From positions 62,001-126,000 of the forward strand of contig ML991788.1 of assembly GCA_010094025.1 (NCBI GenBank): 64,000 nucleotides of DNA, given 5' to 3'. Shown here piece by piece: positions 46,554-56,374 of the stretch; the stretch's first letter is position 1; each line of letters begins with the position of its first letter. The DNA comes from Viridothelium virens. Taxonomy: Eukaryota; Ascomycota; Dothideomycetes; Trypetheliales; Trypetheliaceae. The position numbers were made by a program, and so were the translations under genes. A model generated the notes under the pieces. It made no database searches and was not told where the DNA came from. It saw only the letters and a list, made by a program, of their open reading frames with translations.

Positions 46554-47944
46554 AACCTCGATACCGAGTCATTCTCTCGAATTTCGTTCGCGCGATTTGT
46601 ACGATACTCCAAGATACCATCAATGTATGGGCTCAATTTTCTGTCGTCGAGAATACCGCTACTCGTGTCGTCCACTCGATGCAAGCCCTCAGACATGTGT
46701 GCGTAGTGGCGAAGGTGCTCCGTAAATTCTCGCCTTCAAAGGGACTTCTAGTACGAGAGCCCACGGTACTTGGGGGGACAGACACCTTGCGGCCGTCGAA
46801 CGCGAACATATAGCTGGCATCTGAGTTACGGCCTGCGAGCCATACCGCGAAGTTGTTCGCTCAATGCGGCCGAATGCTAAGATATACTTTGTCACAGAGA
46901 CGCCGAACTCCAGTCCGTTCATCATTCGGAATCCCATGTAATCAGAGTGGTATATTCCAATCATAGAGCCAATCTCAGTGCGAATCGAAGTGAGCCTCGA
47001 AATTTGCAGAATAAATCGACCTAGCTTCGTGCGTCAGAGGCTGCATTGTGAGGACGGCCAATTGTCTGGCAGCTCAGAACCTGACCGGAACGCTCCTTGG
47101 TCGTATGAAAGAGAGATGGCATCCGCGGACAGCTTTTATGCATCTTCCTAATTATTCATTCTGTCATTTTCCTATACATGTAGTATATGAAGCGCGTTGT
47201 GTACATGCAGATTCCAATTATAGGCCTGAGTCTTGATAACTAGGCTCTCCTTTTGGAGTGAATGTTTCGCCGCTACTACAAAGCAGTACACCAACATCAA
47301 AGTTCATATCTAGGGACTGGAGGTGTGTAATTGTGGACATACACCAGGACACAAATTGGCGTACTAGCCCGCATCCTTGCTGACAGCCTCCCTCCTCCAC
47401 CCTCCTTCGGGAGGGGTCTTTCTCACAAAGACTGCTTAAAGCTTCAAGCAGGGCAGGTGGCATTGCTTGTACTTGATCATAACTTTACTAACTGGTTGAT
47501 GAGTGGTATGGTATTTAAAACCTCCATAAAGACTTTGAGGCACTTGATCGTAACTGCACGCCCCTCTCATCTCTACCTGGGTAGGTAGCAAAGCTGGAGC
47601 AAGTGTAGTTTAGCCTAGACTCTAAAATGAAGACTGCGAGTTACACTATATGATTGGTTCGCTTCATAGCCCAGCCACAGGCGTAATCAGCGCTTCTCAA
47701 CACTGACCAGCACTCATAGAAAAGCAGGGCGCAGCGGGCAGCGCTGCTCCGAGCGTTCTTCATTCTACTTCAGAGTCTGAGTCGCTTCAAGCTTGGCACG
47801 CTTGGCTGAGACATCTCGCCCTTCCCTTGAATGATTTAATCCCAACCACCAAGACAGTGAAATCTCGCATCCGTTCACAACTGCATACTTCCTGTCTCAT
47901 CATTCATACATGCTCGGTCGCCAGATTGTGCATTCCTTTGGAAT
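46554..47944. other. intergenic, no supported gene
   Basis: A 91-codon minus ORF at 46689-46964 (GIYHSDYMGFRMMNGLEFGV) looks slightly coding-like but has no recognised domain. CTACCTGGGTAGGTAG lies at 47573-47588. The last 150 bp are the promoter of the G-alpha-like gene. Confidence 0.3.
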
Positions 47945-49951
47945 ATGGCCGACCCTTTAACAGTTTTTGGCGCCGCGGCCTCATTCATGGGAATTATCGA
48001 CGTTCTTAGTAAATCTATTCTGATTGCTCACAATCTGCGGAGCCAGTGGAAGGACGCCGATCTGATATTCCTTAACCTTGCTACGCAGCTCGTCGCTCTT
48101 AAGGCCGCCTTAACCAAGATTAAAGAATGTACTGAAAAGGGTCTAGTTGAACCACACCATCAATTGATCATGGATTTGGATAGTTCGTGGACTTGCTGTA
48201 ACATTATTGTCGGAAAAATTGACAATTTTCTCTCTGAATTACAACAGAAGTCGAACAGTATACTGGACGTATCTACTAAGGCGAGACTTTTACTTGGGAT
48301 CAGAAGTATGGATGATTTACAAAGGATGCTAGAACGCCAACTAAACGCCCTGAACTTACTTCTGAATGCGTGTAGTTTGTGAGTATTTATAAATAAATTT
48401 CCTCGTCAAAAGCTAATCAGCATAGCGACATGGCATTGGAACAGAAAATCTTTCTCGAGAAATCCAGTACGCGCAAGATGTTAAAAAAAGTATCCAACGA
48501 CTCTGCGTCACTTGTTGTCCACCGCGATAAAGACTCACTCTTCAGCCGCTGTACCGATTCTTGGTCAAAACTTTCTATGAAGTTTACGTTCGACAGCGAG
48601 CTTTTCGGCTCCAAGGTATACGAACAATTTCTCCGGGGCTCTCTCAAGACTGCGCTTCGAGACCAACAATCCGACAATGAATCTGTTGGCCGTCAGAGTG
48701 CTTTGCGAGAGAATGGAGCTATCGAGAAACAAATCGCGCTTGACAAAAAGAAACAACGAGATGTTAGCATTCACATTTTTAGTGCGTGATCTTGGTATCG
48801 AGCGGACTGGAGTGGCAAAGCTTACTTTACAACAATAGGTCTCCACGAGAGCGACATCTCTGTATTTATTAGAAACCTGCAGCTCTTAAAGGGCGGTATC
48901 TCTTCAAGCGAGAGAAGACATTACCGATACGTCATCTTTGTCAACTTACTCAAGGCCTTTAAAGCGGCTTTGGACCTCATGATGGAGAAGGAGATGGAAT
49001 TTGAGAATGAGTTAAACCCCGTAGGCAAGTTCCTATATCTCCGTTTTCAAAACTGCTAATGAAACATGGAATACAGGTCTATGCTGATTATATCGCTCGT
49101 AACTTCGATATCCAATCTGCGAACCCTCTACCTGAAGGTTCTTGTCAAATGTTCGAGAGTTTATGGGCCGACAAGTGGTTTCGATGTGCCATATTCGACT
49201 GGCAAGAATATGCCCTACGTGATTGCCTTATTCAGTACATCATATGCCCGCATGCCCCGCTTCCTCAGTGTTCTCACTCTAACGATATGCAGCTGTTTCA
49301 CCAATGTTGATCGCTTTCTTGCCCCAGACTACCTTCCTACCGATGAAGACATTTTGCGTACAAGCTCATTACCAACTGGCGTAACTGACACTGTTGTGGA
49401 AATGAAAAATCAGTCATTCCACTTTATCAATGCAAGAGGACAACACTCGGAACGCAAGAAATGGATACACGTCCTTGGTAATACACAGTTCACACTCTTC
49501 TTAGTGGCGCTCAGTAGTTTCGACGAGCCGCATCTCAAAGACTCGGGTAAAGTAAGCGTGTTAGGTGGAAGGGGCTCTACAATATGAAAACTGACTATTT
49601 CAGAGTCGTTTGAATGAGGGACTCGTGCTTTTCGAGTCCATTGTCAAATCTACATACTTTGCCAGATCCGTGCCTATCATTCTCTTCACTGGCGTCGACG
49701 AGTTTCGTGAAAAGATTCTTTCCGGAAAGAGTCCAATCAATAAATACTTCCCGGACTATACGGCTTCATCAAATGACATTGACGCAGGCAAATATTTCTT
49801 CGCCAGAAAGTTTCAAAGCGTTCTCAGGGAATACTCAGATTTATATGTCCTTTATGGAAATGTCACGGATATGGGTGTTTTCAATGAAATACAAGCGTCA
49901 GTGGCGCAAAGCTTTCTCCAACAATCCATGAGGGATTGCGGAATAGTGTAG
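47945..49951 (+). CDS. STAND N-terminal domain fused to a degenerate G-alpha (pseudo-G-protein)
   Basis: Six exons: 47945-48378, 48426-48781, 48839-49020, 49077-49234, 49293-49551, 49604-49951; 1737 nt, 578 residues, every junction in phase. Residues 1-140 (MADPLTVFGAAASFMGIIDV...) match the helical N-terminal domain of fungal STAND/NLR proteins. From about 250 it follows heterotrimeric G-alpha without large gaps: KKKQRDVSIHIF, LKGGISSSERRHYRYVIF, VDRFLAPDYLPTDEDILR, GQHSERKKWIH, NKYFPDYTASSNDID, and the ending MRDCGIV. All nucleotide motifs are changed: G1 GAGESGKS is SLHESDIS (264-271), switch I lacks the catalytic Arg (LRTSSLPTG), G3 DVGGQ is NARGQ (423-427), G4 NKxD is GVD, G5 TCAT is GNVT. 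GTP binding is not expected. No N-myristoylation start. Open frame across six exons argues for function. Confidence 0.85.
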
Positions 49952-50621
49952 AAAGAGTCTAGGAACAGCATGATACTGAATAAGTATGCTATCCTATTCT
50001 ATCCCGAACGCGGTCCGTCTCTTCCTAGTATGTGGTATCCCTTGCGCTGGCGTCAGGGTTCGGAAACACACCTAGTTGAGTATGGAATAGACTATCCCAT
50101 ATCTTGGATATTTTGGATTGAATTGGATAGCATAATTATGCGCATGATATCTATATTTGGCTAATTATGCTTGATACCTGCGAAACTAAGGCCAATACTG
50201 GCCTAATTAGGTTTGATCTACAGCTTTCTTGTCACGGGACCTATGAAGAGGAGAGGCGAGGGACCTCAGCAGGGATAAAAAGGGCGTAAATTAGACTCAT
50301 ATCAACCAACATCTGACCTATGCAGCAAGTATTAAGCCTAACTAGCCAGATCCAGATCTTATGCAGATAATTATGCTATACAATCCACATCCAGCTTTAT
50401 GTATTCATTATTTCATGCAGCTATGTTTCCGATCCCTGCGGAGAATATCTTCGACTACAAGACCCTCTGCGAAAATCGACTCATCAAAGATACTTGTGAA
50501 TTCCTCATAGGCTCAAACATGCGCCACAAATATAACAGCAGATATCAACACGAAATTCTGAGATATCACTTTTCATATACTTCAGCATTGGTTGTACTGA
50601 AAAACTTCAAAAAGGCCCGCT
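49952..50621 (+). promoter_or_regulatory. NLR promoter region with three TAATTATGC copies
   Basis: The gap between the pseudo-G-alpha and NLR genes. TAATTATGC occurs at 50133-50141 (inside the perfect palindrome GCATAATTATGC, 50130-50141), 50162-50170 and 50368-50376. A GGATAAAAAGG box sits at about 50272-50282. Such spacing suggests a transcription-factor site, but this is inference. A 109-codon ORF overlapping the NLR start is a shadow. Confidence 0.4.
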
Positions 50622-53600
50622 ATGGCTGTTGCGGAGAAATCGCGACGACTGCTTCGTCGGCTTTTCAAAGGCCAAGCTCCGCCAGACGAAGATTTCTCTT
50701 CCAGACAGCATCCGCCAAATCAGGCTAACTCTCCTGTTGCTGGAATGGATGGGAAATCGTTGGCAGCGTTGGGCCAGCCACCGGGTAATGAAGAATCTAT
50801 AAATAATGCCGATTCTAGTCTGTGGGGTGAAGTCTACAGCGACTTCATCAAACCGTCAACGTTATCCGAAGTACGGTCCGTTGCCAAACGTCTGCGGGAC
50901 GAGACTAGAAATTCATCGCTCTCAAGTGGAATGGAGGCGGACATGGAGATGCATGTTTCCCCAGAGCTGCGTGTCTGCATACAGGTGTTAAACACTTCAG
51001 AGAAGCGGCTTTCAGCTCTTGAGAGAGGTCCGAACGGATCGGTGGTACGGAGACTCTGGCATGCCTACGATGAAATAGTGAGATGGACGCAAAAGTTCAT
51101 GACCATCGGAAATATCCTGGCGCAAGTGGATCCTATCCATATCGGACTGCCCTGGGCTGGAATCAGGGCCATTCTGGTTGTATCTGCACACAACCAGAGA
51201 ATACAAGTTGAAGTACTTGAAGGGGTTGCTCAGCTATCCAAGCTCATTTGTAGGTATCAAGCGTTCGAACGTGTTTATTTGCATGACGAATCTACATTAC
51301 AAGAGCCGCTCAAATTCCGACTCAGAGCCGCTTTGAAAGAACTTTATTCGGCCGTGTTCATGTGCCTCGTGGAAGTTAGTCTGTATCTTGAGCGCTCTCT
51401 CGGAAAGAAGATCCTCGATAGCATCAGTTTCTCGGACCATTTCGAACGGCACCTGAATGACATAAAGCACAAGGAAGCAGAAGTCTTGAGGTATGAGGCT
51501 ATGAGCATCAAGGATTCTTCGTATCAACAGTATGTTCAAGTCCGGCAAATACTTAGTACTTACGAAGACCATCTCGAGAGTGAAAAGCGTGTGAAGATAT
51601 GCGACTGGCTCTCGAAGATCGATTATTACTCTCATCATCGTGAAATGAAAAGCAGAGTACTTAAAGAGACGGGAAACTGGTTCCTGGATAGAAGGGAATT
51701 TAAACAGTGGGCTGAAGACAGCAATTCATCGTTACTATGGCTCCGTGGTAACGCGGGAACCGGAAAGACCTGTCTTATGTCCTGTACCATTGAGGCAAAC
51801 CTGGAAGAGCAAGGATTGGACAGCAAAGAATGTTTGGCTTATTTCTATTGTTCAAGAACGACGAGCGACGTCAGACAGCAGGAGCCAAGATCGATTCTCT
51901 TGTCTATCGTCCGACAAATTGCAGCAACACTTCCTGGTCTCCCAATAAAGCCCCCAGTTGTATCAATATATGAAAGAGAAACGGCAAAGGGGAGTCTTGA
52001 AGCAAATCTGTCCATGGAAGAGATAGTGTCTCTTTTGACCGAACTCATTCAGGACCATTATGAGCATGTCACGCTAATGATTGACGCTCTAGATGAATGC
52101 AAAGTTAGCGATCGTTCGCTTCTCCTCGAAACGCTATCTAAACTCACATATAACCATAAGACAGTCGTGAAGACCCTTGTTTCAAGCCGGAACGATCCAG
52201 ACATTGAAAGCCATTTCTCTAAGATTCCGAATCTTTCTATTACCGCAACCGACAACGAAAGGGATATCATGAAGTATGTGCAACAAAATATAGATCAACG
52301 CCTTCTCAATGGCAAGGCCAGAAGGAAAATCAAGGATAAAGCTGCGGAGAATTTGATCAGTAAGGCTTCAGGGGTCTTTCGCTGGGTGACTCTCCAAATT
52401 GATGCCTTATGCGATCCGGAGAGGGTATTTACCGAAGCCGATCTCGAGGCGTTGCTGGAAAGTCTCCCGGCGAACCTTGAAGAATCATATGCTCGAATGA
52501 TAACCGATCTGGATCGATTGTATCCTCTACCAACTCGCAACACCATAAAAAATGCACTCAAGCTGCTCATATGTGCTGAGTGTCCAATGGACGTTGATGA
52601 TATGGTTGGCGCGTTGCAGTTATTGTCTGACTATAGACAAGAAGACTTGAATAAGGCCAAGATCTTGCAAATGGGTAGAGGACTGATCATTATGGAAGTC
52701 GAACGTGGTTGCTTCGCCTTTGCACATTTGTCTGTTCGAGAATATTTGGAAAAACAGGATGAATTCAATGAGAAACATGCACATGTTGCTGCAGCCGAAG
52801 CTTGCCTAAAGGCTTACCTCGATCCCAACTTCAGACGTTCTTTCCTCTGGTACGCCCTCACACACCTAGGCAGACATTGTCTGAAATCACAAGAGCTAAG
52901 GCAGACGGATCCGAAACTACGAAACTTGATGGAAAAGTTTCTTCTTGGTACTGAGTCCAACAGGGCTTTTGAGCGATGGAACCAAGATTGTTTTCAGACT
53001 GATGTCGAAACAGCTCCAGGGACTTGTGATGAGCGGAGGAGGTCCCAATCTCAGCCTGCACAGCCGTTATTCATGGCGTGCGTATATGGTTTTGGTGATT
53101 TCGCCGAGAAGATACTTGCGGAGAGTGGTAGTGCTCTTTACGCCGAGAGTTTCTATGGCGATAGACCGCTCGAAGTCGCTGCACGTTACGGGCATTACAA
53201 GACCATGGTGCTATTGTACACCACTGCTGTATCGAATCAAAAATCATCGATCCGGGAAGATAGGTGGTTATCAGCAGCGGCACAAAGTAGTGTCGTTGAG
53301 GTTTGGAAATTTGCACGGGACCATATCCTACAGGCCCCTATTGCAGAAGTGCTTGCTGTAGCAGCCCGGAACCCTCGATACTCTGAAGAGATGGTAGCGT
53401 CTCTGTTGAGAGATGGGGGAAAGTTGGATGAAGAGACCCTCAGCCGATTTCTTGTATCTTGCGCTTCCTTCGAAACGCTTGACGTCGTTATGCCGCACGT
53501 GGCGTTGAATCAATTTACTGATTCTCTAATACTAGCGGCGGCTCGGAATCCCTTCATCAACCCTGAACTAACAGAGATAATCATTTCAAAGTGCAAAGCT

Positions 53601-56374
53601 CCACGTATATCCAATGCATGTATCATCGGCGCAGTGCTTCTGACAGACGAAAAAACAACCTCAAAAGAAGCCGTCCTTCGGCTTCTATTGAAGCAGCCCG
53701 AACGTTGTGAGATATCTGAGGAAATGATATATCTCATTGCTCTTCTGGGCAGGACGAGAACGGCCGAGTGTCTAGAGATACTATTACCATATTGCAGGCT
53801 CGACCGTATCACTGAGGACATTCTTGCTGCTGCGGCTAAGAACATAACCGTTGGCCCGGCCATCCTGGAGCTTCTTCTTAATCAAGCACTTGAGCACGAA
53901 TATAGCCAGCAAGTCCTCCAAAGTGCGATGCTTAATCGCTGGGAGGCAATTGACTCGTTCAACATTTTGACTGCGAGTCCGGAGTGCCCGCATTTGCAAG
54001 AAGAGAGTCTCTACATTATGACGGAAACTTGGTCCGGAGAGGAAAACTTACTCGTAACGGTCATGGCAAAATTTGCATCTGTATGTGTTACAGAAGCTTA
54101 CCTCAGAGCTTGTGCTGCCAATAGGAATGCCTCGGAGGTGAAACAAGTGCTTGCATTGCCAAGAGCGTTCCCTATCTCCAAAGAAGTGGTGTGCGCATCA
54201 CTTACCAATTTCAGTGCGGCGAGCGATGTTTTAAGGCTGCTTCTTCAAATCAAAGAAGGATTCGAGCTCCCAGCTACCGAAGACATATTGTTGCAGGCAC
54301 TATCTGGTGAGGTTCCTGATGATTTGCGACTCGTCCGTATCCTCGCCAAAGAGTGGGGGTCTCTCCCAGTTACGGAAAAGGTCTTAATGGCTGCCGTGAA
54401 GCATGGTCGGAATGGAATAAGGACCGTCGAGCTTCTCCTTAAGCACTCTAAGGGATCTCACAGCGTATTTACTCAGAATGTGCTTCATGCCGCCGTGGAA
54501 GGGGACAACGCTGAATTCGTGGAGTACTTCCAGCAAAACCGAAGCCATTTCACCGTCAGCGAGGAGCTTCTGAAGGACGCGATCAGGCCCTATACCACCA
54601 ACAACGCAATACTGAGGATCTTGTTATCGCAAAAAGACAGATGCCTGATATCGAAACCTTTACTAGACACGGCCATGAGTATTCAAGAGCAGAATCCAAC
54701 TGCTCTCGAACTTCTCCTCGAGCATTCGGATACCGCAACATTTGAAACGACGGTAACCGCTTCTAAAGTAGGATCTCTCGATCCAGGAGGAAACTCTGTA
54801 GTGGAAGGTGCTGAAGATATCAGTTCCCAGGCGCTTGTGGTCGCGGCATCAACAGACTCAGAGCCTTCGCAATTCTCGACTGAGCTTAGCACTTCGAAGC
54901 TTGATCAAATGTTGTCCAAGTATCATGGTCCCACAGTAGACAGTGAGAAGCTTGTGGAAGTGGCTGCCGAGCGAAGGGACGGAAAATTCGTTGTACAGTA
55001 TATACTCTCACTCTTCCCAGAAACGACTGTCTCGCAATGTGCTTTGCAAACAGCAGCAAGCAACCAAGAGGCCCCGACCTCATTACTTGGACTCCTGCTG
55101 AAGAACTATAGTGGTTCGATCGATTCTCAATTATTGAAAACGGCTGCCGAGAATGAATACCGGGGTACTCAAATGGTCGAACGTCTACTCGCTCGATATC
55201 CTGAAGAACTCAATATTGACCCAGACGTTGTTGCAGCTGGTCTGAAGAATTTTTACTGCGGTCAATCACTTTTTGAGCTATTTTTGAGAAGAGATCCGCA
55301 ACTCCGTGTCACCTCAGACCTTATTGATGCTGCATCCAAGAACGAGGTCCTTGGCAAAGTCTTGCTTCAAAGGCTTCTGGAACGAGCTCTTATTTTGCGG
55401 TCCAATGAACCGGCAGAGCTTGCTCTTACGAAGATAGGAGATGCTGTCAATGGCCTTCGGGATGCTCTGTTCATGGCTGCATGTTACGGACAAGGTCTTA
55501 TCCTCGATTTCTTGACGTTGCATGAGGCGCCCCTTACTGAAGTCTCTGGTGAACTTGGTACTGCATTGAATGTGGCCGTGTATGCTGGCCAAGAGAGTCT
55601 CGTGAAAATGCTTTTGGAGAAAGGAAGCGATCCTGAGTCAAGTAGCAAGCTTTATGGGACGGCGCTGGAAACAGCTTGTCAGCAGGGCAAAATCGAAATT
55701 ATACGACTTCTGGTCCACTATGGTGCAAATATTGACAGGCCAGGCGAAATGGGTAGGACTGTTCTACACGTGATGGCAAGGCAGGGTGAGGATAAAGTGG
55801 TGAACATCCTTACGTCACTTGGAGCTTCGATCACAAATGTGGACAGACAAGGACTGGCCGCAGTGCACCATGCGGCCATCTGCTTGGAATATTCAGATTG
55901 TATCAATCCACTTATTCAGGCCGGTGCTGTTATTGACCAGCAAGATTCGTATCAATGGACCGCTTTGCATTGGGCAGCAAGGGCTGGCGAGGCCGATACA
56001 GTGACGCAGCTTCTTCAAGCTGGAGCTGATAAGAAAAAGACTGATAAGTCCGGCAGAACACCATTGCATGTTGCAATACAGTGTGGCAATGTCTACCTGA
56101 GACCGAAATTATATTTCGAAGGTGCCTCTAATCTACCAGTCAAGCCTGCCGAGAACGAGCACCCCGGCCGCATGTGTGATGCATGCTCGATGGTAAGCCT
56201 CAGAGAAAAGAAGCCTTCTTAAAACCCTTCTGAATTCACGTTTCGCAGGATCTCCATGGGCCAAGGCACGAATGTATTGATTGTGTTGACTATGATCTTT
56301 GTTTTCGGTGCATATACGATGCTGAACGGATTCACGATCTAGGTCACAGCTTCAAAGAATCTGATTCAGAATAG
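50622..56374 (+). CDS. NACHT NLR with degenerate repeats, ankyrins and ZZ zinc finger
   Basis: Two exons, 50622-56192 and 56249-56374; 1898 residues. N-terminal helical domain (about 60-310), with GLPWAGIRAILVVSAHNQRI, as in fungal NLRs (DUF7708-like, from memory). NACHT at about 360-700: Walker A GNAGTGKT (376-383), Walker B LMIDALDEC (485-493), sensor VKTLVSSRND, and the helical end FAHLSVREYLE. Residues about 805-1600 form a long array of degenerate units of the type LL-x-AA-x-N...LLL, divergent ankyrin-like. Canonical ankyrins run from about 1640 to 1830. The second exon completes a ZZ finger: C1852-x2-C1855, C1866-x2-C1869, C1875-x2-C1878, H1886-x3-H1890. Such proteins act in non-self recognition and programmed cell death in fungi (family knowledge). 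No effector domain such as a HeLo or lipase is visible at the N-terminus. Confidence 0.94.

Follow-up and report, generated by a model that had tools for sequence, protein, structure and literature searches.

A G-alpha homologue with a degenerate nucleotide pocket behind a putative HeLo-like module in Viridothelium virens

Introduction

GaoC of Aspergillus flavus and A. oryzae has been described as an extra G-alpha protein, made of the G-alpha domain only, in which the P-loop and the Gln of G3 are altered and which is predicted to be inactive (PMC5869405). In plants, XLG proteins have an N-terminal extension and a G-alpha-like C-terminal half, and bind G-beta-gamma independently of nucleotide (PMC8584482). 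The pseudokinase MLKL carries a 4-helix executioner domain related to the HeLo and HeLo-like domains (PMC12881547, PMC10197012). Work on fungal NLRs names the PF17111 domain HeLo-like N (PMC9815663), and the HeLo-like and SesA annotations overlap (PMC4986451).

Here, we analyzed a gene for a 578-aa protein in which a putative HeLo-like module precedes a G-alpha part with a damaged nucleotide pocket. It lies in a stretch of 64,000 nucleotides from Viridothelium virens (assembly GCA_010094025.1, contig ML991788.1, positions 62,001 to 126,000 of the forward strand), hereafter the window. Going by the portions of the cited reports that we drew on, GaoC resembles this protein as an extra fungal G-alpha with an altered P-loop and predicted inactivity, and appears to be the nearest published fungal case that we found; it differs in having the G-alpha domain only and other substitutions, and its role is a prediction. 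The plant XLG proteins, in the same portions, share the layout of an extension before a G-alpha-like C-terminal half, but their N-terminal domain is Cys-rich, and the G-beta-gamma binding that was demonstrated in XLG is an expectation here. With MLKL and the HET-S/HeLo-like proteins, as these sources present them, the likeness lies in an output domain of the HeLo/4-helix-bundle superfamily, which in MLKL is joined to a pseudoenzyme; these proteins have a pseudokinase or an amyloid motif in place of a pseudo-G-alpha, and membrane activity of the 578-aa protein is predicted at most. A HeLo-like/G-alpha fusion was not found in the titles and beginnings of abstracts among the matches listed, nor did a query for PF00503 together with PF17111 return a paper, both searches covering literature other than subscription papers and preprints. 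A term search inside fungal NLR papers gave no 'g-alpha' in the portions of text covered and, where it was checked, no Greek-letter form.

Results

Gene model and shared introns

The gene occupies 47945-49951 of the window on the plus strand and, with the standard code, its six exons join into one frame of 578 aa with no inner stops, in agreement with the sequence-only reading that preceded this work. The five introns, of 47-58 bases, all have GT-AG ends, and a CTRAY branch motif was found in four of them, intron 2 being the one without it. Exon 1 (47945-48378) encodes the N-terminal domain (residues 1-145), assigned below to the HeLo-like/PF17111 superfamily, and is followed by a phase-2 intron (48379-48425) that has a same-place, phase-2 counterpart in the paralogues on contigs C33 and C62. 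Exon 2 (48426-48781) encodes the conserved linker FTFDSELFGSKVY (residues 198-210) and, after it, the G-alpha part's alpha-N helix and first strand. Intron 2 (48782-48838, phase 1) stands directly before the P-loop and holds, in another frame, a P-loop-like peptide, GIERTGVAK, which we took as non-coding. Exon 3 (48839-49020) carries the degenerate P-loop SLHESDIS and the start of the helical domain, which continues in exon 4 (49077-49234); the degenerate switch I (SSLPTG) and G3 (NARGQHSERKKWIH) fall in exon 5 (49293-49551), and the degenerate G4 (TGVD) and G5 (GNVT), the tail RDCGIV and the stop codon in exon 6 (49604-49951). Between them lie introns 3 (49021-49076, phase 0), 4 (49235-49292, phase 2) and 5 (49552-49603, phase 0). 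A donor-like GCAAGT at 49025-49030, within intron 3, is near the place of a GC donor in the paralogue C46, and its use here would break the frame.

The places and phases (1, 0, 2, 0) of introns 2-5 recur in two genes of the same genome, the canonical G-alpha C7 and the paralogue C46, whose models were fitted by reading frames in this analysis, C46 requiring a GC donor for its intron 3. This fourfold match supports the six-exon model, including intron 2, which is critical because of its position immediately ahead of the P-loop and the P-loop-like peptide noted above. Since introns are shared with C7, C46, C33 and C62, we read the gene as a G-alpha gene body preceded by a module, and not as a retrocopy. 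A recent duplicate found no support either, as a DNA search of the genome returned the gene itself only. An alternative exon with an intact GxGESGKS, which the sequence-only reading had named as an observation that would overturn it, did not appear: no Walker A pattern GxxxxGK[ST] is present in the six unspliced frames of 47400-50600, and GIERTGVAK sits in the intron common to C46 and C7.

The C-terminal part is a G-alpha homologue

Residues 240-564 matched the Pfam G-alpha family (PF00503) with an E value of 6.1e-62 and 210.1 bits against a cut-off of 48.8, and the blocks APDYLPTDEDILR, SERKKWIH, NKYFPDY and the tail RDCGIV were all found, bearing out the proposal that the C-terminal ~330 residues are G-alpha. 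SERKKWIH, which in G-alpha lies within switch II and contacts G-beta, is retained at 8/8 positions, and the alpha-N helix can be aligned with that of C7. C7 was the closest canonical protein compared (141/346 residues identical, 41%). The whole-domain profile match and the four introns shared with C7 place this part within the G-alpha family by descent, and support its identification as a G-alpha homologue.

The start of C7 is uncertain, reading either MAPGVMMCFG or MMCFG, and the protein fits class II because neither has the MGxxxS site (class criterion as given in the part of PMC13059215 that we used). A Cys at position -4 is described there as a feature of class I. With its CGIV end (49940-49951), the 578-aa protein has a class I-like tail, and its body is closest to a class II-like G-alpha; C7 ends in NALIL.

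The N-terminal domain is a remote relative of PF17111

Pfam gave no PF17111 match, and no other relevant family, in the N-terminal domain of the 578-aa protein itself, so that its identification as a Pfam-level STAND domain was set aside. PF17111 was matched by six of 12 aligned N-domains (best E 1.7e-5) and by five of eight whole relatives, all five below the 27.2-bit cut-off. As the domain had no Pfam match of its own, we compared a profile of the 12 N-domains with seven PF17111 proteins encoded in this genome, all of them with a Pfam match. This gave 97.3% with E 1.8e-11 over 139 columns, whereas the best of 60 column shuffles reached 1.1% and the reversed profile 3.5%. The domain thus falls short of the curated Pfam cut-off and is joined to the family by an end-to-end profile comparison, which supports, remotely, that residues 1-145 belong to the PF17111/SesA (HeLo-like) superfamily. 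Of the earlier view that the first 140 residues are the domain used by fungal NLRs, the superfamily kinship holds, through the relatives and the profile, and a direct Pfam assignment does not. A search for a solved structure yielded 16 weak matches with E values of 0.0055 at best, which we did not consider meaningful.

When 19-mers from the first 220 starting positions were compared, the most hydrophobic one started at 3-10 in all 13 members examined, in line with the hydrophobic helix expected at the extreme N-terminus of this superfamily; its mean of 1.3-2.0 is weak as a transmembrane score. In the same genome, a 512-residue frame on contig C3 has both a PF17111 match (609061-609312, just below cut-off) and a NACHT match (609862-610335), and the superfamily therefore sits on an NLR-type protein in this organism. 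The 578-aa protein itself showed no NACHT or NB-ARC domain in Pfam and does not qualify as an NLR/STAND protein. ORFs on contigs C61, C30, C39, C45 and C13 (L035-L039) likewise start with a similar N-module and show no G-alpha part among the matches listed; the one on C39 reads by eye as ankyrin repeats, and those on C45 and C13 matched weakly (E 0.04-0.05).

None of the nucleotide motifs is intact

The P-loop of the 578-aa protein reads SLHESDIS against GAGESGKS, with the Lys, whose loss had been noted before, replaced by Ile, and the preceding Gly by Asp. Switch I is RTSSLPTGV against RARLKTTGI, in which Ser has taken the place of Arg and Pro that of the first Thr, and G3 is NARGQ against DVGGQ, where Asp became Asn and the Gln is retained. 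In G4, TGVD stands for NKID, with Asn and Lys replaced and Asp retained, and in G5, GNVT for TNAT, with Ala replaced. The protein therefore lacks the features expected of a working heterotrimeric G-alpha, namely the P-loop GxGESGKS, the switch I Arg/Thr with DxxGQ, and (N/T)KxD with TCA (G4 and G5 forms as given in the portion of PMC8584482 consulted). Of 26 motif residues chosen in C7, 10 are identical, including Glu, Ser and Ser of G1, Gly-Gln of G3 and Asp of G4.

We then defined near-invariant columns as those conserved in at least 8/9 canonical sequences, which gave 98 columns, 23 in the pocket and 75 elsewhere. The 578-aa protein retains 9/23 pocket columns and 36/74 of the other columns covered, rates that do not differ (p 0.48). 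With no significant excess of loss in the pocket over the remaining canonical-invariant columns, the G-alpha part looks relaxed throughout. Since canonical rows score high on columns picked from themselves, the count was repeated by leaving one out, and the nine canonical rows kept 20/20 (an incomplete class III-like row), 22/23, 23/23 or 23/24 pocket columns. C7 kept 23/23 in the pocket and 63/93 elsewhere, indicating that a working G-alpha may drift widely in other places and yet keep its pocket, which the 578-aa protein has lost. It is not the most degenerate of its family, as the relatives' pocket counts run from 6/23 (P0003) to 17/23 (P0016), and P0001 keeps 1/8 of those covered. The sequence-only reading, in which all five motifs were lost, thus holds as to damage in every motif and overstates it for the G3 Gln, the G4 Asp and the other residues still identical to C7. 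Taken as a whole, the substitutions make a pseudo-GTPase reading well supported; the G-alpha-like domain probably no longer switches with GTP, and we infer that it does not bind GTP.

The fusion recurs in other ascomycetes

A protein-database search with residues 1-225, admitting proteins of 0.55-1.75 times the query length only, gave 11 matches, all 11 with a G-alpha domain, and a third protein search brought no further member. The N-module and the order of the parts are the same as in the 578-aa protein in P0001 (Bathelium mastoideum), P0017 (Clohesyomyces aquaticus), P0003 (Dactylonectria macrodidyma), P0013 (Aspergillus carlsbadensis), P0002, P0004-P0006, P0018 and P0019, so that the fusion is found in Dothideomycetes (Bathelium, Clohesyomyces), Sordariomycetes (Dactylonectria) and an Aspergillus. 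The remaining carriers are, we assume, Sordariomycetes as well. Their source names are alpha-2 subunit, G-protein alpha subunit-domain-containing protein, or hypothetical.

The closest relative, P0001, is 65% identical over residues 1-225, pairs with the 578-aa protein in the N-module tree (100/98) and has a dead P-loop too (GLDDWERF), in keeping with the earlier opinion that this is not simple decay. It shares the N-module and the start of the G-alpha part; its 379-aa model stops at the place of intron 4, and the C-terminal half is unseen. A Walker A P-loop, lost in the 578-aa protein, is present in P0004-P0006, P0018 and P0019. The P-loop Lys is missing in 4/16 rows of the N-module tree, the 578-aa protein included; P0003 and P0013, which have lost it, keep SERKKWIH at 3/8 and 1/8 positions, respectively. 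A single loss of this Lys was set aside, since the best tree needs at least two changes, with the one-clade alternative borderline (p-AU 0.055). The catalytic Gln of G3 is kept by the 578-aa protein, for all that its P-loop is lost, and absent from 14/14 other G-alpha-like relatives with G3 covered, fusions among them (P0013 is poorly aligned there). Extended G-alpha-like ascomycete proteins thus exist, as had been stated beforehand, but not with the normal motifs attributed to them.

Among 14 proteins, P0010, P0020, C130 and C46 being left out, similarity was higher in the N-module than in the G-alpha part for 87/91 pairs. Identities for N-module and G-alpha part were 94% vs 70% for P0004-P0006, 65% vs 36% (151 columns) for the 578-aa protein and P0001, and 58% vs 28% for C33 and C62, and canonical G-alpha pairs in the same alignment were 35-74% alike. 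When left out, the 578-aa protein retained 30/32 N-module positions invariant in the nine others, and other members 29-30 of 30-35. In the G-alpha tree, it joins canonical C7 together with P0001, nearer than the other fusions (95/90 with all rows; 89/88 without P0003 and P0013, dropped for their long branches), and a single clade of all fusions is not rejected (p-AU 0.21 for 14 rows and 0.13 for 10). A separate fusion, recombination or slower change may each lie behind this position.

The same genome has a second group of N-module and G-alpha-like proteins on C33, C130 and C62 (L013, L014 and L015, respectively), with a single-exon G-alpha part, a kept Walker A P-loop, and changes at the G3 Gln and G4 Asn-Lys. 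The G-alpha-like paralogue on C46 (L009, 1614-3095), in which no N-module was found, has the P-loop GCGGSGKA, G3 ELGGS and four introns matching those of the 578-aa gene. Matches of the initial search on C39, C71 and C50 looked by eye like Arf/Sar-type ORFs and were dropped.

An NLR-type ORF lies downstream

Less than 0.7 kb downstream of the gene, on the same strand, starts an ORF of 1873 residues (50607-56222; stop to stop 50601-56222) with NPHP3_N/NACHT and ankyrin repeats, a DUF7708 match above and a NACHT_N match below cut-off. The 30.7 Mb genome has at least 64 NACHT matches, some not certain NLRs; assuming about 10,000 genes, an NLR this close would be expected for roughly 1/100 genes, and the proximity was noticed after the fact. 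The two proteins have no Pfam domain in common. Among the listed NACHT matches, only the C46 contig of the contigs C33, C62, C130 and C46 has one, ~14 kb away from the relative.

Discussion

The reading that we favour, by a modest margin over doubt, is that of an intact gene whose pseudo-G-alpha works, independently of nucleotide, as a fixed binding domain that controls a HeLo-like output module. A class II-like fungal G-alpha gene body, with its introns, would carry a helical module of the PF17111/SesA superfamily at its N-terminus, and the G-alpha-like domain would have become a fixed binder in place of a GTP switch. Contacts of nucleotide-free G-alpha are probably kept, for example those that the alpha-N helix and SERKKWIH would make with G-beta-gamma. 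Binding of a partner to this domain may control the N-terminal module, whose output would be membrane targeting or assembly. A conserved helical output domain beside a fast-changing, nucleotide-dead partner domain suggests a sensor or regulator, and since P0003 and P0013 lost SERKKWIH, a kept G-beta contact would not be a general rule of the family.

The same features could come from a gene that is beginning to decay, with a functionless G-alpha half and selection on the N-terminal module only, or on nothing. The rapid change of the G-alpha part across the whole family, the like loss of pocket and other columns, and the Bathelium model that ends midway through this part all agree with it, and very recent loss or decay is possible, as 125/500 simulated neutral copies were still free of stops at 0.02 substitutions per site; at 0.1, this number fell to 2/500. 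Against decay stand 578 codons without an inner stop or frame break, a dead P-loop in a second genus, and a G-alpha part still 41% identical to a canonical protein, and we regard it as unlikely. The neighbouring NLR-type ORF brings in a decoy or guarded bait, where the pseudo-G-alpha would mimic the G-protein target of an invader and be guarded by the adjacent NLR. The short distance on the same strand, in a genome with the NACHT count given above, and the sensor-like divergence beside a conserved N-module are what such a pair would show, but it is a single instance, which the relatives' loci do not repeat, and no common domain links the two proteins, which makes this account improbable. An unusual nucleotide binder, locked or very slow, could be read from the surviving G3 Gln, G4 Asp and P-loop Ser; with the P-loop Lys and its preceding Gly, the DxxG Asp, the first switch I Thr and the NKxD Asn-Lys all replaced, we give this very little credence.

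A bolder version of the fixed-binder reading, which we consider doubtful, is a HeLo-superfamily executioner restrained by a pseudo-G-alpha that senses the state of G-beta-gamma or a receptor without nucleotide, a G-protein counterpart of MLKL in which the loss of GTP binding was repeated in more than one lineage. If true, it would let G-protein signalling lead to membrane permeabilisation in fungi. Pseudokinases are familiar; far less so is a pseudo-G-alpha that comes with half-degenerate relatives. The series from P-loop-keeping to dead fusions makes it testable whether a G-alpha fold is kept for binding alone. If the N-module acts like HeLo-like domains, the family would link regulated cell death in fungi with the biology of heterotrimeric G proteins.
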